A DNA stretch of 64,000 nt from Onthophagus taurus (lineage: Eukaryota; Arthropoda; Insecta; Coleoptera; Scarabaeidae): positions 2,852,001-2,916,000 of the forward strand of contig NC_091973.1 in the NCBI RefSeq assembly GCF_036711975.1. The letters are read 5' to 3'. This document shows positions 24,256-64,000 of the stretch, piece by piece. Each line of letters opens with the position of its first letter. Positions within the stretch are counted from its first letter, which is position 1. The notes beneath the pieces are model-generated. The model saw nothing but the letters and a program-made list of their open reading frames with translations, had not been told where the DNA came from and did no database searches. Position numbers and translations under genes: made by a program.

Positions 24256-31651
<7,396 letters not shown>

Positions 31652-33838: not shown

Positions 33839-34467
33839 GGCTTAAAAGTGACGATTTTCTTTGAGAAAACATGAATGGATTGAAGCGTAGGGTTTCAAAA
33901 TCCAACCGCTCCGAACAAATTCGCTGCAGTTAGTGAGTTTAGTGAGCGTTGGTTTGTGTTTTATCAATAGTGGGAGATGAACCAATCTGAAGCGTTCAAA
34001 TTTAAAGAAAAAAAAAAGTTACCTAAAGCACAGCCTAAAGTAAATGTTAAAAAAATTTTATTCAATTTATTTTGATTTATTTAAATCTTAAAATTTTTTT
34101 TTTTCAAAAATTTTTAAATCCAACTCTGCGCAAAACTCGATGCGTACCAGGTCTCCATAGGTACCAACCTAAATCAAAATCAAATTATTTATAAATCCTA
34201 TTTCAAACTTAAATTTATAATAAAAAGTTTGTAATTGATTTGTTATTCATATTTTAAGTTATTTAAATCAAAAATTTATAATAATTTAATGCGATTTAGT
34301 CAACGGTGATCGTCAATTGTTTTTCGGAGGTTATTTAAGGGGTGGGAAAGTGGTCGCCAGTTCACTTACGTTGAGTAAGTGGTCTGCTTCGGTTGTGATA
34401 GTGTTTTCCCTTCGAGGATTTTTAAAATTTTGCGAATTTGGCCGAAAATTATTATAAAAAGGAGAAA

Positions 34468-36959
34468 ATGGGGCTAATTGTTTGTAAGGAAGCACTTTTT
34501 TCGTTATTTTTTTTTGTTTGCGATGATTTCCTTGGTTAGGTTAATTTTCTTCGAGAATGTTCTAGAACATTCTCGAAGATTCCGCCATGTTTAAAAAAAT
34601 CGTTCAAAAAACGCGCCAAATTTAAAATTGTTTTTTTATTGATATCTAATATAAATATATTCATTATAGCGAAATTAGAAAAAACACCCGCACTGATGGA
34701 GGAATTTTTATTCCTCATAATGAACACGATGGGTAACTTTATTGGGAACTATATTGAGGTTGCTGATATCGTACTGTTTTTTGATGGTGCTGAAATGATG
34801 AATCGTTGTGAGGCAAGTCTCCAACGCCACATATCAGCGTAAGTACTCATCGCGATTAAAATTTATTTTGTTTTATAATGAAATGTTTCTTAATTTAGTC
34901 GTAAACGGGCTTTTCGATCAGAACTCCGCAAATATCAAGAAAATCACCGAAACTGCCAGTGCCAGGTTTGCATGACAAGGGCAATGTGTAATATTAACGA
35001 AATGCAGGAATACTGGATTCATTTTGAAGAAGTACTGCATAACATGTGTGAAAACGAGACGATGGAAATAGAGGCAGTTACCTTGATGGGCATCCTAATA
35101 GATTTTTACTTTTCCTTACAATTTGATTTGCCCATATGTTGCAGGCGTAAAGACAAAAACAGCGTTATTCGCAAATCCATCGAAGAAGATTTGTTACAAC
35201 CATTACGAGTTTTATTGGAAAAAGGAGTAAGTTAATTTATTTGTGTTAGCCTTAATAACAAATCTTTTTACTAGAAAAAAGAGAAGAAAAAGGCTGAACC
35301 GTCCAAAATGACTCAAGGAACTAAATCGTTTGAACTCCCAAAAACGTCAGAATCGAAATCACCGCCGAGGCATGATAAACGGAAGAAGCAACGAAGCAAC
35401 ATATCATTGAGCCCCACTTGTGGACTCCCAAAAGCACCCCAATCTACGTCACCTAGGAAATTTCAAATAAGTGCCGGAGATCCAACACCGTCTACTTCAC
35501 AAATGTTCATGCAAGAAGAGCGAGATGTGGAACTTGATCGTAAGTTAGATAATTCATAAAGTTGCAAAATAAATTAATAATAATAAATAATTAAGCAGCT
35601 GCAGCCGAAGAGGAACCAAGCGAGGTTGTCCTCAAAATGATCAAAAAAGGAGGAGTTTACATCCCAGCCAATTTCGATGACCTCCCCGACGAATTAAAAA
35701 GTGTATTTAGAAGAATCGAAGAGGCAGCGAAAATAATGGCAGATGCGCCTCCGAGCACTCCAAAATCTCCTGTAAAATCACCAAAACCTAAGAAAACGAC
35801 CAAAGTATTAAGAGATCCTGTTTTGATCATTCCACCACCACCTCAAAAGAAAATCCAAGTAATACCACAGGAAGTTCAAGAAGCCATGGATGTTTTTCCA
35901 AAAATGCATCATCACAGCTTATCTTCTCAACCTTCCAGTGTGAGGCTGACAGAACCCGATCCCGAAAGAATTAAATTGGAAGACTTAATGGCATCAGGTT
36001 CTTTCAAAAAGCATAAACAACCCGAAAATCCATTCAAATTAACACAAAAAAGACAGGCAGAGAGGGTGAAATTGTCACATGCTCTACATAGATCATCTTC
36101 CATCGAAAAGCTTCCTTCAGAATTTCCTGACGATGAACCAATTATGCCATTTAAATTACAACCTCCTCAACCAAAATCCCCTCCTGGTGCAAAGCAACCG
36201 GACACCACCAAACTTTTAAAAGACGAATTGGATAAAACAACCATCGGGAAGAAACTTTTTGAAACCGTTTTTGGAGTTCAAGATGATGACAAAATCTTTA
36301 AACTTGAAGAATTGATGAAATTAGAGCAAGAACCCCAATCTGCTCCAATTCCAAAGGAGACACAAAGAGAAGAGGAAAAAATTAGCTTCGATCAGAACGA
36401 CGAAAAAGATGTTTCCGGTAATTTTTTAATTTTAATTTTTTGATTTTTATTTAATTTCTTTTTTTTTTGTTTTCAATAAGAATATTCAGATGAAGATGAG
36501 GAAGAAGAAACGAGTTACGACGAAGAACTCGAAGAGGATACTCCACCGGATTCTCCGAAAACACCACCACCAGGTGGTTCAGACTCCGGTTCATATTTTA
36601 CAGCTGTTTCAAGCACAACAACAATCTCTTCACACAAAAAAGATAAGATAAATAAAGGTGATGATGTTGTCGAAAAAGAATCTAAAGATACTTCAACTTT
36701 AAAGTATAATCTGTTGGATATCTTTAAAAAGCCTTCTCAATTTAATCCTTGGAAAAGTAAATCGCAGGCAGGACACTCGATTAGTAAAATTAACAAACCT
36801 TCAGCGTCAAGGAAGTTCAGATTTCCTCCCAACAGAAAACTTCCTTCAATATTACCATTATTTCAACAATATCCTACCATAGCAGAAGACCCCACTAGTG
36901 AAGATTTTGAAAATGAACAAAAGTTGATGATGGAACAAACGAAAAAGAAACGTGATTAA
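34468..36959 (+). CDS. Unrecognised Cys-motif, Lys/Pro/Ser-rich protein, paralogue 1
   Basis: Family not recognised. Exons: 34468-34483, 34670-34838, 34899-35226, 35275-35539, 35599-36417, 36481-36959; all phases agree, 691 aa. Exon 1 encodes only MGLIV plus one base. A folded-looking N-terminal half follows: FLFLIMNTMGNFIGNYIEVA, then RKRAFRSELRKYQE, a Cys cluster CQCQVCMTRAMCN, and LQFDLPICCRRKDK. The remainder looks disordered (Lys/Pro/Ser-rich), with shorter conserved blocks VVLKMIKKGGVYIPANFDDL, IQVIPQEVQEAMDVFP, DPERIKLEDLM and TVFGVQDDDKIFKLEELM. An acidic EYSDEDEEEE block opens the last exon. No signal peptide or TM segment is seen. The Cys cluster might bind metal (inference). It has a tandem paralogue at 45144-48570 and an HSE array in intron 1. 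Confidence 0.85.
34550..34582. promoter_or_regulatory. Heat-shock element array, paralogue 1 intron 1 (7 units)
   Basis: TTC and GAA triplets alternate at exact 5-bp steps: 550-552, 555-557, 560-562, 565-567, 570-572, 575-577 and 580-582 (add 34000). Three units make a functional HSE, so seven is a very strong predicted HSF site. It lies 67 bp after the first exon. Confidence 0.8.
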
Positions 36960-37339: not shown

Positions 37340-40300
37340 GACCAATGAAGTCGTTTCAAATGATGGCCATGACGGGTGTTGGAATAGTTCACCATCTCGG
37401 CGCAGTTGTCACTACCGTCGAATAAGTGGACGGTTTTAGCTGTGAAAGTGTTGGTTCTTCGAAGATTTGTTGAAATTACCCGAATTTAGGTGAAAATTAT
37501 CATAAAAAAGAAGAAAATGGGGCTGATTATATGTAAGAAATCATTTTTTCATAAAATTTTTCTGTATTCGCGTTATTTTTCTTGGTTATGTCGGTAAATT
37601 AGGTTCCAAAACTTATTAAACGGAAATTTATTATGATTATTGCTAAAATAAGTGCTTTTATGGTGATTTTGAGTATTCTACGACTTTAGAATTAATATTT
37701 GTTGAAATTTTCGGGTTATTTTTTAAATTATTGTCTTAAATGTGTCCTTGGGATGCTAAAAAACCGTTATTTTCAAAAAAAAGAATCCGACCAATCAGAT
37801 AATCGCAAGTGGCGGCCATGACGTGTGTTAGAATAGTTCACCATCTTACCATATTTGGCATAACGTCACTTTCGTCGAAGAAGTGGTCGGTTTCGCGTGT
37901 GAAAGTGTTGCCTCTTCGAAAATTTTAGCAAATTATCCCAATTTCGGTGAAAATTATCATAAAAAGAAGAAAATGGGGCTGATTATATGTAAGAAATCAT
38001 TTCTTCATAAAATTTTTTTGTATTCGCGTTGTTTTTCTTGGTTATGTCGGTAAATTAGGTCCCAAAACTTATTAAACGGAAATTTATCACAATTATTGCT
38101 AAAATAAGTGTTTTTATGGGAGTTTTAAGTAATCTAGTACTTTCGGAACTAATTTTTGTTGAAATTTTCGGGTTATTTTTCAAATTATTGTCTTAAATGT
38201 GTCCTTGGAATGCCAAAAAAACCGTTATTTTCAAAAAAAGAATCCGACCAATCAAATGATCGCAAGTGGCGGCCATGACGTGTTAGAATAGTTCACCATC
38301 TTGCCATATTTAGCATCACGTCACTTTCGTCGAAGAAGTGGTCGGTTTCGCGTGTGAAAGTGTTGCCTCTTCGAAAATTTTAGCAAATTATCCCAATTTC
38401 GGTGAAATTTATCATAAAAAGAAGAAAATGGGGCTGATTATATGTAAGAAATCATTTCTTCATAAAATTTTTTTGTATTCGCGTTGTTTTTCTTGGTTAT
38501 GTCGGTAAATTAGGTCCCAAAACTTATTAAACGGAAATTTATCACAATTATTGCTAAAATAAGTGTTTTTATGGGAGTTTTAAGTAATCTAGTACTTTCG
38601 GAACTAATTTTTGTTGAAATTTTCGGGTTATTTTTCAAATTATTGTCTTAAATGTGTCCTTGGAATGCCAAAAAAACCGTTATTTTCAAAAAAAGAATCC
38701 GACCAATCAAATAATCGCAAGTGGCGGCCATGACGTGTGTTAGAATAGTTCACCATCTTGTCATATTTGACATCACGTCACTTTCGTCGAAGAAGTGGTC
38801 GGTTTCGTGTGTGAAAGTGTTGCCTCTTCGAAAATTTTAGCAAATTATCCCAATTTCGGTGAAAATTATCATAAAAAGAAGAAAATGGGGCTGATTATAT
38901 GTAAGAAATCATTTTTTCATAAAATTTTTTTGTATTCGCGTTGTTTTTCTTGGTTATGTCGGTAAATTAGGTTCCAAAACTTATTAAACGGAAATTTATC
39001 ACAATTATTGCTAAAATAAGTGTTTTTATGTGAGTTTTAAGTAATCTAGGACTTCCAGGACTAATTTTTGTTGAAATTTTGGGGTTATTTTTTAAATTAT
39101 TGTCTTAAATGTGTCCTTGGGATGCTAAAAAACCGTTATTTTCAAAAAAAGAATCCGACCAATCAAATGATCGCAAGTGGCGGCCATGACGTGTTAGAAT
39201 AGTTCACCATCTTGCCATATTTGGCGTTCACGTCACATTCGTCGAGTAAGTGGACGGTTTCGCGTGTGAAAGTGTTGCCTCTTCGAAGATTTATTGTAAT
39301 TATCCGAATTCTGGTAAAAATTATCATAAAAAGGAAGAAAATGGGGCTGATTATTTGTAAGAAATCATTTTTTCATAATATTTTTTATTATTCGCGTCGT
39401 TTTCTTTGGTTAGGTCGGTAAATTAGGTCCCAAAACTTATTAAACGGAAATTTATCACAATTATTGCTAAAATAAGTGTTTTTATGGGAGTTTTAAGTAA
39501 TATAGTACTTTCAGAACTAATTTTTGTTGAAATTTTCGAGTTATTTTTCAAATTATTGTGTTCAATGTGTCCTTGGGATGCTAAAAAACCGTTATTTTCA
39601 AAAAAAGAATCCGACCAATCAAATAACCGCAAGTGGCGGCCATGACGTGTGTTAGAATAGTTCACCATCTTACCATATTTGGCATAACGTCACTTTCGTC
39701 GAAGAAGTGGTCGGTTTCGCGTGTGAATGTGTTGCCTCTTCGAAAATTTTAGCAAATTATCCCAATTTCGGTGAAAATTATTATAAAAAGAAGAAAATGG
39801 GGCTGATTATATGTAAGAAATCATTTTTTCATAAAATTTTTTTGTATTCGCGTTGTTTTTCTTGGTTATGTCGGTAAATTAGGTTCCAAAACTTATTAAA
39901 CGGAAATTTATCATGATTATTGCTAAAATAAGTGCTTTTATGGTGATTTTGAGTATTCTACGACTTTAGAATTAATATTTGTTGAAATTTTCGGGTTATT
40001 TTTCAAATTATTGTCTTAAATGTGTCCTTGGGATGCTAAAAAACCGTTATTTTCAAAAAAAGAATCCGACCAATCAAATAACCGCAAGTGGCGGCCATGA
40101 CGTGTGTTTGAATAGTTCACCATCTTACCATATTTGGCATAACGTCACTTTCGTCGAAGAACTGGTCGGTTTCGCGTGTGAAAGTGTTGCCTCTTCGAAA
40201 ATTTTAGCAAATTATCCCAATTTCGGTGAAAATTATCATAAAAAGAAGAAAATGGGGCTGATTATATGTAAGAAATCATTTTTTCATAAAATTTTTTTGT

Positions 40301-41186
40301 ATTCGCGTTGCTTTTCTTGGTTATGTCGGTAAATTAGGTTCCAAAACTTATTAAACGGAAGTTTATCACAATTATTGCTAAAATAAGTGTTTTTATGGGA
40401 GTTTTAAGTAATCTAGTACTTTCGGAACTAATTTTTGTTGAAATTTTCGGGTTATTTTTCAAATTATTGTCTTAAATGTGTCCTTGGAATGCCAAAAAAA
40501 CCGTTATTTTCAAAAAAAGAATCCGACCAATCAAATGATCGCAAGTGGCGGCCATGACGTGGTAGAATAGTTCGCCATCTTGCCATATTTGGCGTTCGCG
40601 TCAGTTTCGTCGAAGAAGTGGTCGGTTTCGTGTGTGAAAGTGTTGCCTCTTCGAAGATTTCTTGAAATTATCCGAATTTCGGTGAAAATTATCATAAAAA
40701 GGAAGAAAATGGGGCTGATTATTTGTAAGAAATCATGTTTTCATGATATTTTTTATTATTCACGTCGTTTTCTTTGGTTAGGTCGGTAAATTAGGTCCCA
40801 AAACTTATTAAACGGAAATTTATCACAATTATTGCTAAAATAAGTGTTTTTATGTGAGTTTTAAGTAGTCTAGGACTTCCAGGACTAATTTTTGTTGAAA
40901 TTTTCGGGTTATTTTTTAAATTGTTGTCTTAAATGTGTCCTTGGAATAAAAGTGGCGGCCATGACGTGTTAGAATAGTTCACCATCTTGCCATATTTGGC
41001 GTTCGCGTCACTTTCGTCGAGTAAGTGGTCAGTTTCGGGTGTGCTCCTCGAAAATTTATTCAAATTTTCCGAATTTCGGTGAAAATTGTTATAAAAAGGT
41101 GAAAATGGGGCTGATTGTTTGTAAGTAATCATTTTTTCATACATTATCTTTTGATTCGCGATATTTCTTGAAGTAGGTTGATTTTC

Positions 41187-41224
41187 TTCGAGAATGTTCG
41201 AGAATGTTCTAGAACATTCTCGAA
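41187..41224. promoter_or_regulatory. Heat-shock element array in the module array (8 units)
   Basis: Eight alternating TTC/GAA units at exact 5-bp steps (TTC at 41187, 41197, 41207, 41217; GAA at 41192, 41202, 41212, 41222), 67 bp after the module exon at 41105-41120. Predicted strong HSF site. Confidence 0.8.
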
Positions 41225-44120
41225 GGAAATCAACTTACTTGCCATATTTGGCGTTCGCGTCACTTTCGTCGAGTAAGTGGTCAGTTTCGGGTGTGCTCCT
41301 CGAAAATTTATTGAAATTTTCCGAATTTCGGTAAAAATTATCATAAAAAGGAAGAAAATGGGGCTGATTATTTGTAAGAAATCATTTTTTCATGATATTT
41401 TTTATTATTGTCGTCGTTTTCTTTGGTTAGGTCGGTAAATTCGGTCCCAAAACTTATTAAACGGAAATTTATCACAATTATTGCTACAATAAGTGTTTGT
41501 ATGTGAGTTTTAAGTAATCTAGGACTTCCAGGACTAATTTTTGTTGAAATTTTCGGGTTATTTTTCAAATTATTGTCTTAAATGTGTCGTTGGTATGCTA
41601 AAAAAACCGTTATTTTCAAAAAAAGAATCCGACCAATCAAATAATCGCATGTGGCGGCCATGACGTGTTTTGGAATAGTTCACCATCTTACCATATTTGG
41701 CGTTCGCGTCACTTTCGTCGAGTAAGTGGTCGGTTTCGCGTGCAAAAGTGTTGCCCCTTCGAAAATTTGTTGAAATTTTACGAATTTCGGTGAAAATTAT
41801 CATAAAAAGGTGAAAATGGGGCTGATTGTTTGTAAGAAATCATTTTTTCATGATATTTTTTATTATTCGCGTCGTTTTCTTTGGTTAGGTCGGTAAATTA
41901 GGTCCCAAAACTTATTAAACGGAAATTTTTCACAATTATTGCTAAAATAAGTGTTTTTATGTGAGTTTTAAGTAATCTAGGACTTCCAGGACTAATTTTT
42001 GTTGAAATTTTCGGGTTATTTTTTGAATTATTGTCTTAAATGTGTCCTTGGGATGCTAAAAAAAACCGTTATTTTCAAAAAAAAAATCCGACCAATCAAA
42101 TGATCGCAAGTGGCGGCCATGACGTGTTAGAATAGTTTGCCATCTTGCCATATTTGGCGTTCGCGTCACTTTCGTCGAGTAAGTGGTCGGTTTCGCGTGT
42201 AAAAGTGTTGCCCCTTCGAAAATTTGTTGAAATTTTACGAATTTCGGTGAAAATTATCATAAAAGGAAGAAAATGGGGCTGATTATTTGTAAGAAATCAT
42301 TTATTCATGATATTTTTTATTATTCACGTCGTTTTCTTTGGTTAGGTCGATAAATTAGGTCCCAAAACTTATTAAACGGGAATTTATCACAATTATTGCT
42401 AAAATAAGTGTTTTTATGTGAGTTTTAAGTAATCTAGGACTTCCAGGACTAATTTTTGTTGAAATTTTCGGGTTATTTTTTAAATTATTGTCTGAAATGT
42501 GTCCTTGGAGTGCTAAAAAAACCGTTATTTTCAAAAAAAGAATCCGACCAATCAAATGATCGCAAGTGGCGGCCATGACGTGTTAGAATAGTTCACCATC
42601 TTGCCATATTTGGCGTTCGCGTCACTTTCGTCGAGTAAGTGGACGGTTTCGCGTGTGAAAGTGTTGCCTCTTCGAAGATTTGTTGAAATTATCCGAATTC
42701 TGGTAAAAATTATCATAAAAAGGAAGAAAATGGGGCTGATTATTTGTAAGAAATCATTTTTTCATGATATTTTTTATTATTCGCGTCGTTTTCTTTGGTT
42801 AGGTCGGTAAATTAGGTCCCAAAACTTATTAAACGGAAATTTATCACAATTATTGTTAAAATAAGTGTTTTTATGGGAGTTTTAAGTAATCTAGGACTTC
42901 CAGGATTAATTTTTGTTGAAATTTTCGGGTTATTTTTTAAATTATTGTCTTAAATGTGTCCTTGGAGTGCTAAAAAAACCGTTATTTTCAAAAAAAGAAT
43001 CCGACCAATCAAATGATCGCAAGTGGCGGCCATGACGTGTTAGAATAGTTCGCCATCTTGCCATATTTGGCGTTCGCGTCAGTTTCGTCGAAGAAGTGGT
43101 CGGTTTCGCGTGTAAAAGTGTTGCCCCTTCGAAAATTTGTTGAAATTTTATGAATTTCGGTGAAAATTATCATAAAAAGGAAGAAAATGGGGCTGATTAT
43201 TTGTAAGAAATCATTTTTTCATGATATTTTTTATTATTCGCGTCGTTTTCTTTGGTTAGGTCGGTAAATTAGGTCCCAAAACTTATTAAACGGAAATTTA
43301 TCACAATTATTGTTAAAATAAGTGTTTTTATGGGAGTTTTAAGTAATCTAGGACTTCCAGGATTAATTTTTGTTGAAATTTTCGGGTTATTTTTTAAATT
43401 ATTGTCTTAAATGTGTCCTTGGAGTGCTAAAAAAACCGTTATTTTCAAAAAAAGAATCCGACCAATCAAATGATCGCAAGTGGCGGCCATGACGTGTTAG
43501 AATAGTTCGCCATCTTGCCATATTTGGCGTTCGCGTCAGTTTCGTCGAAGAAGTGGTCGGTTTCGCGTGTAAAAGTGTTGCCCCTTCGAAAATTTGTTGA
43601 AATTTTATGAATTTCGGTGAAAATTATCATAAAAAGGAAGAAAATGGGGCTGATTATTTGTAAGAAATCATTTTTTCATAATATTTTTTATTATTCGCGT
43701 CGTTTTCTTTGGTTAGGTCGGTAAATTAGGTCCCAAAACTTATTAAACGGAAATTTATCACAATTATTGTTAAAATAAGTGTTTTTATGGGAGTTTTAAG
43801 TAATCTAGGACCTCCTGGACTAATTTTTGTTCAAATTTTCGGGTTATTTTTTAAATTGTTGTCTTAAATGTGTCCTTGGAATAAAAGTGGCGGCCATGAC
43901 GTTTAGAATAGTTCACCATCTTGCCATATTTGGCGTTCGCGTCACTTTCGTCGAGTAAGTGGTCAGTTTCGGGTGTGCTCCTCGAAAATTTATTCAAATT
44001 TTCCAAATTTCGGTGAAAATTGTTATAAAAAGGTGAAAATGGGGCTGATTGTTTGTAAGTAATCATTTTTTCATACATTATCTTTTGATTCGCGATGTTT
44101 CTTGAAGTAGGTTAATTTTC

Positions 44121-44158
44121 TTCGAGAATGTTCGAGAATGTTCTAGAACATTCTCGAA
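44121..44158. promoter_or_regulatory. Heat-shock element array in the module array (8 units)
   Basis: Eight alternating TTC/GAA units at exact 5-bp steps from 44121 to 44158, in the same position relative to the module exon at 44039 as in the other HSE-bearing modules. Confidence 0.8.
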
Positions 44159-45143
44159 GAAAATCAACCTACTTGCCATATTTGGCGTTCGCGTCACTTT
44201 CGTCGAGTAAGTGGTCAGTTTCGGGTGTGCTCCTCGAAAATTTATTGAAATTTTCCGAATTTCGGTGAAAATTGTTATAAAAAGGTGAAAATGGGGCTGA
44301 TTGTTTGTAAGAAATCATTTTTTCATGATATTTTTTATTATTCGCGTCGTTTTCTTTGGTTAGGTCGGTAAATTAGGTCCCAAAACTTATTAAACGGAAA
44401 TTTTTCACAATTATTGCTAAAATAAGTGTTTTTATGTGAGTTTTAAGTAATCTAGGACTTCCAGGACTAATTTTTGTTGAAATTTTCGGGTTATTTTTTG
44501 AATTATTGTCTTAAATGTGTCCTTGGGATGCTAAAAAAAACCGTTATTTTCAAAAAAAAAATCCGACCAATCAAATGATCGCAAGTGGCGGCCATGACGT
44601 GTTAGAATAGTTTGCCATCTTGCCATATTTGGCGTTCGCGTCACTTTCGTCGAGTAAGTGGTCGGTTTCGCGTGTAAAAGTGTTGCCCCTTCGAAAATTT
44701 GTTGAAATTTTACGAATTTCGGTGAAAATTATCATAAAAGGAAGAAAATGGGGCTGATTATTTGTAAGAAATCATTTATTCACGATATTTTTTATTATTC
44801 ACGTCGTTTTCTTTGGTTAGGTCGGTAAATTAGGTCCCAAAACTTATTAAACGGAAATTTATCACAATTATTGCTAAAATAAGTGTTTTTATGGGAGTTT
44901 TAAGTAGTGTAGGACTTCCAGGACTAATTTTTGTTGAAATTTTCGGGTTATTTTTTAAATTGTTGTCTTAAATGTGTCCTTGGAATAAAAGTGGCGGCCA
45001 TGACGTTTTAGAATAGTTCGCCATCTTGCCATATTTGGCGTTCGCGTCACTTTCGTCGAGTAAGTGGTCAGTTTCGGGTGTGCTCCTCGAAAATTTATTC
45101 AAATTTTCCGAATTTCGGTGAAAATTGTTATAAAAAGGTGAAA

Positions 45144-48100
45144 ATGGGGTTGATTGTTTGTAAGTAATCATTTTTTCATACATTATCTTTTGATTCGCGA
45201 TATTTCTTGAAGTAGGTTGATTTTCTTCGAGAATGTTCTAGAACATTCTCGAACAAATTTAAAAAAGCCGTTACGTTCAAAAAGCCAAACTTAAAAAAAA
45301 CCGCGGAATGACATAATTTTGAAATAGGTAGCCATAATAGGTACTAAAACATTTTGCCATCTTATTCATCATTTTGAATGCATTATGAGTTATTATTTTA
45401 ATTAACATTTCGTAATTATCGTTTAAATAATGATAATTAGACTATTTTCGAATGTTTATGAATCTAATTTTTATTTCTTTTTTTAATAAATAAATTTTAA
45501 AACGTTTTTAAAGAAACAAAAATAAATTTAAAGTAAAACTAATACTAGTTTGGGTTAAGCCGTGCGTCTTTTGAAAAAGTGTTTGACGTTTCGGATGCCA
45601 TGTTGCAACCTTCGTCAGAAACAAGTTCGAAGTGACGAAATCGGTGAAGAAAACTTCATGGTATAATTAATGTTTGTAAACAAAACTAACCTTACTTAAC
45701 ATTCCTTCATGCTATAATTGACAGACTGAGTTCCCAGCCCTTTTCTCTATTCATTTTATTCCCATATCGCCTCTCTCGTCATTCTTTGGAAGTAATGTCC
45801 GGTTCTTGCTATCACTTTAGTTTTGTCACCCTCCATGGTGTGTCCTCCTTTGTGGCAATACTGTTGGATTTTATTCAGTCGGACGTCCCACTTGTGTTTC
45901 TTGATGCAGCATTCGATGTTACGTCCAGTTTGGCCAACGTAATAGTTGATGGAATGAAGCCTACAGGTATTTATTCGTATGCGTCTTCTTTCGATATACT
46001 CCCAGTTCCATGCCACCATCTGTCTTCCTAGTGACCAACACATCCCAGAATTGTAACTGCTTTGCAGTTTCCATTTCCATAAATTTGATCATGAATTGTT
46101 GTGAGTTTAGGTGGTCTCGAAATTCCTGGAGTTTCTCTTTTCATGATAGACAGTACTGTACTAGTCCTGGGACATCCTTCTGCTAACCCTCCGGGATGAG
46201 TTTCTGGCGAAGACCATTCCATCTCTGGTGAATAGAGATTCCACATCGAAACTTACCAAGATATCCTGGGAGTCTAATTTCATACTCTGTTTTACCTGTA
46301 AAAGGAGACAGAATCTTGGCGAGGTGTTTTGCTAGTTGCTAGGTGGGGGCGTACTGGGACATCTGGTTTATGGATTTTGGGTAATCCATATATCCTTGGA
46401 GGTACTGGGGCCTGTACAAATAAGCTTCTCTGTGATTCTGCTGGGATAAATATATTTATAAATACATTCTTTATAGCACAATTAGAAAAATCCCCCGCAC
46501 GGTTGGACGAATTTTTGTTCCTCATAATGAATAGTATGGGAAATTTTATTGGGAACTATATTGAGGTTGCCGATATCGTGCAGTTCTTCAGTAGTAATAC
46601 AGACGTGATGAGGCGTTGCGAATCAAGCCTCGAACGCCATATATCAGCGTAAGGACTCATCCCAAATAAGATAAATTTTTTTATAATGACATGTGTTTCT
46701 TAATTTAGTCGTAAACGAGCTTTTCGCCCAGAGCTACATAAATATCAAGAAAATAGTAAGAATTGCCAGTGCCACGTTTGCACAGCAAGGGCGATGTGCA
46801 ATATTGATGAGATGCATGAATACTGGTGTTGCTTAGAAGAATTATTGCTTAAGCTGTGTGCAGATGAAACGATGGAAGAAGAGGCAGCAAACGTGCTTGA
46901 AACCCTGAGAGAATTTTATTTTACATTACAATTTGATCTGCCAGTATGTTGCAGACGCAAAGATAAGAAAAGTGTCATTCGCAAATGTATCGAGGAAGAG
47001 TTGTTGCGACCATTAAAAAAATTAGTTTTAGCAAGCGTAAGTTAATTATTAATAATAAAATTTAAATTTGTTACCCTTAATAATAAATCTTATTAGAAGT
47101 ATGACAAGAAAAAGACTGAACCAGCTAAATCAATTGAACACCCAGAATCTTCAAAACCAAAATCACCGACGAAGGACGACAAACGGAAAAAACAGCGGAG
47201 TAAAATATCGTTGAGTCCTACTAGTGAAGGACTTCCAAAAGCACCCCAATCTACATCACCTAGGAAGAAGGTTCAAACAAGTGGCGGAGACGCAAAACCG
47301 TCTACGTCTAAAATGCTCATGCAAGAAGAGGAAGATGTGACAGTTTACGAACTAGCACTTGATCGTAAGTTCTCTCATAAATTAATTTATAAACTTAAAA
47401 AATCAATAAATTTTTTTCTTATATAAGACGAAAGTGAGGGTGATGAAGAAGGTGCCACAGCCCAAGAGGAACCAAGCGAGTTTATCCTCAAAATGGTCAA
47501 AAAAGGAGGAATTTACATGCCATCGAATTTAGAAGAGCTTCCCGAAGAATTAAAAAACGTATTTAAAAGAATCGCAGATGCTGCAAAAATGATAGTGGAT
47601 GCTCCTCCGAGCACTTCAGCAGCTGCATCACCTGCGAAATCACGAAAACATAAACCAAAGAAAACGACCGAAGTATTAACAAAGCCTGTTCTGGTCGTCT
47701 CACCACCAGTCGAAAAGAAAATCCAAATAATTCCTCACGAAGTACAAGAAGCTATGGATGTTTTCCCACAACTGCAACGTTACGGCTTATCTGCTAAGCC
47801 TTCCAGTGTGAAGCTGACAGAACCCGATCCCGAAAGAGTAAAGTTGGAAGACTTAATGGTGTCAAGTTCTTCTAAAAAACACAAACAACCGACTGAAAAT
47901 CCTTTTAAAATAACTGAAAAAAGACATGGAAAGAAAATCGTTTCGAAGGAATCTTCACATGCTCTACACAAAACAGCTTCTGTAGAAAAGCTTCCTTCAG
48001 AATTTCCCGACGATAAACCAATCACGCCACTTAAATTGCAATCCCCTCAAAAAGCTGCTTCTAAACCAAAATCCCCTCCGGATTCAAACCAACCGAACCC

Positions 48101-48570
48101 CACCGAGCTTTTAAAAAGCGAATTGGATAAAACAACCATGGGGAAGAAAATTTTTAATACCGTTTTTGGAGTTCAAGATGATGATAAAATCTTTCAACTT
48201 GAAGAATTGATGAAAATAGAGCAACCAGCTATCGAAATGCAAAGACCTGTTCCAGTTCCGAAGGAGCCTCGAGCAGAAGAGAAGAAAGTTAGCAAACAGT
48301 CACGCTTAGATCCGAATCTTGCAAGCAGTTCTAAGCAGACCACCCAAGCTCAGTATTACCCACAAGATGTGAAGCCCCAAATAACTTACGACGAAAAGGA
48401 CTTAGAAGTTGTCGATCTATCCGAAGCTTCATACGAATACGGATTTGGTAAATTTTTTTATTTTAATTTTTTTTATTTTTATTTAATTTATTTATTTTTT
48501 TTAATAAGAATATTCAGATGATGATGAAGAGGAGGAATTAACTTACGATGAAGCTTCTGGATCAAAGTAA
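45144..48570 (+). CDS. Unrecognised Cys-motif, Lys/Pro/Ser-rich protein, paralogue 2
   Basis: Tandem paralogue of the gene at 34468-36959; function unknown. Exons: 45144-45159 (or any upstream module exon), 46477-46648, 46709-47036, 47097-47364, 47428-48447, 48509-48570; phases agree, about 621 aa. Intron positions and phases are the same as in paralogue 1. The Cys cluster is kept as CQCHVCTARAMCN and the second as LPVCCRRKDK. Conserved blocks include FILKMVKKGGIYMPSNLEEL, IQIIPHEVQEAMDVFP and TVFGVQDDDKIFQLEELM. The last exon is much shorter: EYSDDDEEEELTYDEASGSK, then stop, so the ~140-residue C-terminal tail of paralogue 1 is missing. Intron 1 holds a Penelope-like remnant. Both copies are intact, which suggests that both are functional. 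Confidence 0.85.
45226..45253. promoter_or_regulatory. Heat-shock element array, paralogue 2 intron 1 (6 units)
   Basis: Six alternating TTC/GAA units (TTC 45226, 45236, 45246; GAA 45231, 45241, 45251), 66 bp after the native exon 1. The downstream sequence resembles paralogue 1 intron 1 (AAATTTAAAAAAGCCGTTAC), which identifies this as the original copy. Confidence 0.8.
45545..46440 (-). mobile_element. Degenerate Penelope-like retroelement inside paralogue 2 intron 1
   Basis: Read on the minus strand, a reverse-transcriptase block PPRIYGLPKIHKPDVP appears near 46430-46370. A broken stretch follows, then FWDVLVTRKTDGG and VYRKKTHTNKYL, then in another frame the GIY-YIG-type endonuclease motif YVGQTGRNIECCIKKHKWDV. 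The 3' tail carries the typical GCAACATGGCATCCGAAACG. Frames change several times and the RT palm is absent, so it is dead. Order RT then GIY-YIG is diagnostic of Penelope-like elements. Confidence 0.85.
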
Positions 48571-48597: not shown

Positions 48598-49130
48598 TAA
48601 TTTGATTTGATTTTGTGATTATTTTGAGTTCCTACAAAGATGTTTGTAATAGTTTAATAAGTTTTTGATATAACTAGGATATAAGTTTGAGTTAATTTTT
48701 TTATTTACTAAGTACGTTTTTGATATTATGATTATTTTGAGTTCCTACAAAGATGTTTGTAATAGTTTAATAAGTTTTTGATGTAAGTAGGATATAAGTT
48801 TGAGTTAATTTTTTTATTTACTAAGTACGTTTTTGATTTTGTGATTATTTTGAGTTCCTACAAAGATGTTTGTAATAGTTTAATAAGTTTTTGATATAAT
48901 TAGGATATAAGTTTGAGTTAATTTTTTTATTTACTATGTACGTTTTTGATTTTGTGATTATTTTGAGTTCCTACAAAGATGTTTGTAATAGTTTAATAAG
49001 TTTTTGATATAACTAGGATATAACTTTGAGTTCATTTTTTTATTTACTAAGAACTTTTTTGATATTGTGATTGGTTTGAGTTCCTACAAAGATGTTTGTA
49101 ATAGTTTAATAAGTTTTTGATATAACTATT
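48598..49130. repeat. 113-bp tandem repeat downstream of paralogue 2
   Basis: GAGTTCCTACAAAGATGTTT recurs at 48626, 48739, 48852, 48965 and 49078, an exact 113-bp period in five copies. The sequence is AT-rich and non-coding. It starts within ~30 bp of the stop codon, so it may form part of the 3'UTR. Confidence 0.9.

Positions 49131-51543: not shown

Positions 51544-64000
<12,457 letters not shown>

Follow-up and report, generated by a model that had tools for sequence, protein, structure and literature searches.

The stretch analysed here, referred to as the window, covers 64 kb of the Onthophagus taurus genome (C8:2852001-2916000, within the 290.8-Mb assembly). It contains two paralogous genes, P1 and P2, and between them a tandem array of 19 modules, each made up of a leader, a short exon 1 and a splice donor. 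Exon borders of P1 and P2 were picked by hand from splice signals, without cDNA, and both resulting models have six exons and a frame that is open through to the stop:

34332-36959, + strand: P1, 691 aa, six exons (34468-34483, 34670-34838, 34899-35226, 35275-35539, 35599-36417, 36481-36959)
37340-45260, + strand: array of 19 leader/exon 1/donor modules, from the P1 3' end to P2; outer limits approximate, set by reading
46477-48570, + strand: P2 exons 2-6 (46477-46648, 46709-47036, 47097-47364, 47428-48447, 48509-48570); 621 aa with exon 1 at 45144

A sequence-only reading of this DNA had proposed 19 tandem modules between two paralogues, and a search of the window with the 21-mer ATGGGGCTGATTATTTGTAAG, allowing up to 4 mismatches, bore this out: 20 matches were found on the + strand, one in P1 (34468) and 19 within 37517-45144, with none on the minus strand and none in 30 dinucleotide-Markov sequences of 64 kb. 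All 19 modules are arranged head-to-tail in the orientation of P2. Thirteen of the 18 spacings between them measure 455-458 bp, three 395-396 bp and two 252-253 bp, the shorter ones falling around 41105 and 44039 and before 45144. Every module retains ATGGGG, the single T that closes the exon and a GTAAG donor. Exon 1 is 16 nt long and encodes MGLI[I/V] plus the first base of Ser6, and each of the 19 modules, when joined in silico to P2 exon 2 (46477), reads MGLI[I/V]SQLEKSP. The proposals that ATG, phase (one leftover base) and donor are kept throughout, and that every module could be spliced to an exon 2 at 46477 to give an MGLI[I/V]S start, therefore hold for the complete array, and the placement of exon 2 is supported by the six-exon models of both genes. 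We regard the structure of the array and its reading frame as certain. Sixteen modules belong to a class A and three (41105, 44039 and 45144) to a class B; their exons 1, all located with ATGGGGCTGATTATTTGTAAG, are:

37517-37532, +: module 1, A, initiator diverged to TCACTA
37973-37988, +: module 2, A
38428-38443, +: module 3, A
38885-38900, +: module 4, A
39341-39356, +: module 5, A, initiator diverged to TCACAT
39797-39812, +: module 6, A, one upstream ATG in the leader
40252-40267, +: module 7, A
40709-40724, +: module 8, A
41105-41120, +: module 9, B, followed by a heat-shock element
41358-41373, +: module 10, A type downstream, heat-shock element directly 5'; predicted start 41262
41816-41831, +: module 11, A
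42273-42288, +: module 12, A
42730-42745, +: module 13, A
43187-43202, +: module 14, A, one upstream ATG in the leader
43644-43659, +: module 15, A, one upstream ATG in the leader
44039-44054, +: module 16, B
44291-44306, +: module 17, A type downstream, heat-shock element directly 5'; predicted start 44196
44748-44763, +: module 18, A
45144-45159, +: module 19, B, the exon 1 nearest to P2

Over positions -105 to +65 the modules are 77.5-99.4% identical (171 pairs), with B modules 41105 and 44039 being 99.4 and 98.2% identical to 45144. Seventeen distinct leader-plus-exon sequences (95 + 16 nt) occur among the 19, the identical pairs being 42273/44748 and 43187/43644. Because the units differ by up to 22.5% over the compared stretch, the array is not a simple assembly echo. 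A looser, degenerate exon-1 pattern returned 21 matches in the entire assembly, namely the 19 modules, P1 and a third paralogue, P3, and its reversed control returned none; with the empty Markov controls, this rules out chance or misreading as the source of the array. The 881-bp double unit gave at least 17 matches and, among the matches listed, all lie at the array locus, the P1 leader included, on which ground a transposable element as the unit was set aside. Similar head-to-tail units and a local block duplication (41687-42509 and 44172-44984, 97% identical) are features that the array has in common with satellites.

The P1 and P2 proteins are 67% identical over 546 aligned codons, and dN/dS values of 0.33 (NG86) and 0.43 (YN00) place the pair under net constraint. 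The exon-1 match of P3 is at C8:3186995, 0.29 Mb from the array and on the opposite strand. P3 exon 1 (MGQIT + S) has the same length, phase and GTAAG donor as the modules, and exon 3 of P3, whose model extends just to the limit of the fetched stretch, is 52% identical to that of P1, compared with 66% for P2. Palindromic tandem repeats, seen by eye, occupy part of P3 intron 1 (L013:5600-7000). A broken, partial fourth copy on contig 11 (C11:14669001-14679000) matches 49 aa of exon 3 and has stops inside. The N-termini of P1, P2 and P3 all read MG-x3-S, which fits a myristoylation-type pattern. The N-terminal 260 aa of P1 matched no Pfam family above cut-off (best DUF2652, E 0.024, below cut-off), and a PDB search for the identity of the protein gave a best E of 0.76.

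Changes among modules were counted by parsimony in three sets: 16 A units, 13 full A units and all 19 modules. In the 16 A units, the 21 sites of exon 1 and donor have undergone 2 changes, whereas windows of 21 sites average 10.1 (site permutation 0.008); the leader has 0.65-0.72 changes per site, the next 60 bp 0.38 and the spacer 0.31-0.73. The 13 full A units likewise show 2 changes in exon and donor (permutation 0.026; leader 0.37-0.43, spacer 0.28-0.85 per site), and all 19 modules show 4 against a mean of 11.7, with 6 of 165 windows as low (permutation 0.009). When minority letters were counted instead, 6 of 440 windows were as low as exon and donor. Relative to 60-bp flanks, 2 changes were seen where 10.9 are expected in the 16 A units (Poisson 0.0014), and 4 where 13.7 are expected in all 19 (Poisson 0.0023); the exon-1 differences are synonymous or exchange Ile and Val. 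For ATG and GT alone, the flank rate predicts about 2.6 changes in the A units and none was seen, which has a chance of about 7-8%. Together these counts point to modest constraint on exon and donor.

The start regions of P1, P3, the three B modules and one A module were compared in an alignment. An initiator-like TCA[CGT]T[TC] lies 95-106 bp 5' of the ATG in 17 of the 19 modules (104 bp in P1, 85 bp in P3); modules 37517 and 39341 fail this pattern and were left unscored, so counts of promoter elements are out of 17. P1 and P3 have in common a TATTTAAGG TATA box at -32 from TCA[C/G]TT, which in P1 is TCACTT with A+1 at 34364. A downstream element, scored against its consensus, matches at 6/6 positions in P1 and 5/6 in P3, and among the scored modules at 5/6 in five and at 3-4 in the other 12. 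In 15 of the 17, CCATATTTGG stands at -19 or -20 from the predicted start. By reading, TATAAAAAGG, directly 5' of some ATGs, was rejected as a TATA box since it is too near the ATG, and AATAAAAG, upstream of the B modules, was discounted as a deletion junction. The intron part of the one A unit compared resembles the stretch of P3 intron that separates exon 1 from the heat-shock element (1 of 500 shuffles reached its local score), and on account of this similarity it looks like gene sequence.

The sequence-only account of the array did not include its heat-shock elements. The window holds just four runs of at least three alternating TTC/GAA units:

34550-34582: 7 units, in P1 intron 1
41187-41224: 8 units, -75 to -38 of the module 10 predicted start (41262), inside the predicted hairpin 41171-41240
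44121-44158: 8 units, -75 to -38 of the module 17 predicted start (44196)
45226-45253: 6 units, palindromic, in P2 intron 1

An 8-unit element is also present about 180 bp past exon 1 of P3, and perfect elements of 6-8 units are found just 3' of exon 1 in P1, P2, P3 and two further array copies. Sixty Markov windows contained 71 runs of three units, two of four and none longer. A TTC-first six-unit pattern has nine sites in the genome (12 partly overlapping matches in 291 Mb; 1 match for the reversed control), and five of the nine belong to the P1/P2/P3 family, array copies included. Of the 20 open reading frames (ORFs) listed around the other four (C1:4803457, C2:3437173, C3:4443800 and C3:5366770), seven were scanned; reverse transcriptase, carboxylesterase and DUF7869 exceeded the Pfam cut-off, one ORF had a weak match below it and three had none. 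HSP70 itself has 28 matches, all on contigs other than that of the array. The motif was checked on 12 HSP70 loci: four carry runs of 4 or 5 units at -172/-182 of the open frame, all of them among the seven whose single frame is near full-length. Between the P3 element and the array element, trimer bases differ at 0 of 21 positions and spacer bases at 4 of 12. An available part of PMC4980810 describes first-intron heat-shock elements as the main sites of heat-shock factor (HSF) in human HSP90AB1. The likeness lies in the position of the elements in intron 1; that system, as described there, is one gene with no array, and its typical elements have about three units, in contrast to the 6-8 perfect units found here. 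We consider that the P1/P2/P3 family is probably driven by HSF through the perfect elements just past exon 1.

In a tree of the modules together with P1 and P3, the B clade has support of 100/100 and the P3 branch is very long. Because the tree does not resolve P1 from the array (support 33.8/38), it does not establish that the array arose after P1 and P2 had split. By identity, the 16 A modules stand slightly nearer to P2's own module (78.1-92.4%) than to P1 (75.0-83.6%). At the B junction (41171-41240), a hairpin of 32 pairs is predicted around the heat-shock palindrome (-27.5 kcal/mol, z -11, equalled by 0 of 200 shuffles), which suggests template switching there. Predicted hairpins at the P1 and P2 elements are weaker, and that of the P3 element is poor, with 5 of 200 shuffles doing equally well.

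Elsewhere in the window, Pfam identified an M14 carboxypeptidase, an OCRE/G-patch protein, a rhodopsin-type receptor and an ion-channel gene, a gene content that reads as animal and probably insect-like; an Rfam scan of the window found no family. By eye, the P1 3' region resembles degenerate related repeats. Further repeats, the three tandem arrays being called by Tandem Repeats Finder, are:

29748-31438: tandem array, 280 bp x 6, amid a minus-strand gene, with parts inverted by eye
45530-46450, minus strand: interspersed repeat, an insertion in P2 intron 1 with approximate boundaries
48606-49128: tandem array, 113 bp x 4.6, beginning 36 bp past the P2 stop codon
55737-57110: nested palindromic repeats (GGCGGCCGACGTCTTCGAAGTCGGCCGAG) within an apparent intron of the ion-channel gene
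56358-56812: third additional long-period tandem array

The repeat in P2 intron 1 has 2468 first-look candidates in the genome, 40 of the 2468 having been scored; its YVGQTGRNI stretch is, we presume, Penelope-like, without Pfam support. Since the 113-bp array starts right after the P2 stop, both ends of P2 adjoin arrays.

The first-exon array sits between variable-first-exon clusters, the spacer promoters of ribosomal DNA (rDNA) and the 87C heat-shock array of Drosophila melanogaster, and it is a member of none of them, because a defining feature of each was looked for and is not found here. Genes for rRNA are transcribed by polymerase I. Duplications of rDNA spacer promoters, according to an excerpt of PMC1215480, likewise place copies of a promoter region in tandem between gene copies and upstream of a gene, and activity is reported to rise with the number of promoter copies. 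They serve rRNA genes and, as presented in that excerpt, have no coding exon or splice donor, unlike the array modules. Of core-promoter features, the initiator occurs in 17 of 19 modules and the P1/P3 TATA box in 0 of the 17 scored, and the gene served, P2, is by its open exons an intron-bearing protein gene. UGT1 and the clustered protocadherins have tandem first exons upstream of common exons (PMC3325998, in part), and all 19 modules have, by sequence, donors compatible with the common exons of P2. The first exons of those clusters are described as variable, each with its specific promoter, whereas the modules are near-identical, 16 nt long and encode MGLII or MGLIV only. At 87C, alpha-beta repeats and an alpha-gamma element lie between Hsp70Ba and Hsp70Bb (PMC1794594, from the part available). 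The two loci resemble each other in having tandem repeats between a pair of gene copies and, it seems, in repeats that carry 5' control sequence from the genes on either side and heat-shock promoter sequence. The 87C repeats are described there as transposable-element nests, with chimeric non-coding RNA made from an Hsp70 promoter fragment. By contrast, the array units are gene-derived, are found at one locus, retain a coding exon 1 with its donor and have genes other than Hsp70 on either side: the P1 Pfam result, the location of HSP70 on other contigs and the single-locus double unit all differ from Hsp70 flanks and transposable-element nests. The leader is present in all 19 modules, with heat-shock elements after 3 and before 2. 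A literature search of titles and abstract openings found no description of an array of near-identical first exons, which proves little.

Our preferred reading, to which we give a probability of roughly 0.45, is that the array grew locally from the P2 5' end, is splice-competent by sequence and is used in part as a set of redundant heat-responsive starts. The P2 5' end (initiator-type start, short leader, exon 1, donor and beginning of intron 1) would have been multiplied in place; a transcript from any module would skip the later donors, join P2 exon 2 and yield the same N-terminus. HSF would act through the perfect elements just 3' of exon 1, two of which, intronic at first, tandem duplication would have converted into promoter-proximal elements of the next module, and the modules could thus serve P2, at least in part, as redundant heat-responsive starts and enhancers, perhaps with an effect on dosage. 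Such a functional bank of starts gains slightly from the exon and donor constraint together with the heat-shock elements; the lack of the TATA box and the small number of elements within the array count against it. A bolder version we consider unlikely: a protein-gene counterpart of rDNA spacer promoters, in which 19 interchangeable first exons with a myristoylation-type N-terminus form a heat-responsive bank and P2 output is set by copy number. In this version the bank would have been seeded by template switching at the palindromic heat-shock element just past exon 1, and that element would later have come to act as upstream promoter element for the following module.

Several observations weigh against our reading. 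The P1/P3 TATA box TATTTAAGG is present in none of the 17 scored modules, P2's own included, so the description of the modules as promoters in the sequence-only reading is only partly shown: the leader occurs in all 19 and the initiator-like site in 17. The leaders of 3 of the 17 contain an upstream ATG, and leaders are no better conserved than spacer. That reading had offered a promoter bank, a dosage or decoy device and a young satellite; it is borne out in part, since the structure, phase and donors stand, and the TATA box and leader results count against a promoter bank. It had also raised the comparison of ATG and donor with the rest of the unit, and exon and donor have indeed changed less than their flanks; a count as low is reached by 26 of 370 A-unit windows and, for the 13 full A units, by 46 of 435, which makes the signal a modest one, and gene conversion might produce the same pattern. 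Heat-shock elements follow just 3 of the 19 modules and precede 2, no heat-shock gene was visible at the other four six-unit sites (20 ORFs, 7 scanned, without a systematic search), and 8 of 12 HSP70 loci are without any run of at least three units. Finally, other tandem arrays lie close by.

Nearly as likely as partial heat-responsive use is a passive young satellite, in which unequal exchange or template switching amplified the P2 5' end, with module 19 the sole one in use and the remaining 18 as bystanders whose similarity reflects conversion and a recent origin. With three further long-period arrays, one of them 36 bp past the P2 stop, array growth appears common in the window, and the existence of the array therefore needs no selection. 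The high identity among modules (77.5-99.4%), the 97% block copy and the absence of the P1/P3 TATA box from the scored modules agree with this view, the predicted B-junction hairpin fits an origin by template switching, and given so little divergence few losses of ATG or GT are expected. What speaks against it is that exon and donor reach about 18% (A units) and 29% (all 19) of the change count that their flanks predict, and that the differences are conservative. Heat-induced non-coding transcription, in which modules beside heat-shock elements would make array RNA rather than mainly P2 mRNA, as alpha-gamma does at 87C, would account for the elements at -38 to -75 of two module starts and for a position between two gene copies like that between Hsp70Ba and Hsp70Bb (PMC1794594, as far as the excerpt goes). 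It would have no need of donors and frames, all of which are intact, and the upstream element is found in just 2 of 19 modules, and we consider it improbable. Least probable is a decoy or sink for HSF or another unit-binding factor: repeated sites exist, among them CCATATTTGG, which 15 of the 17 scored modules carry 19-20 bp ahead of their predicted start, but a sink needs many, the array has two heat-shock elements besides those of P1 and P2, and the low rate of change sits at exon and donor instead of the leader.

If several modules are used, P2 would be a protein gene with a naturally acquired bank of start sites that can be tuned by copy number, and the array would show that tandem duplication can make an intronic heat-shock element a promoter element. 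If the last module alone is used, the locus would be a snapshot of a satellite born from the 5' end of a gene.

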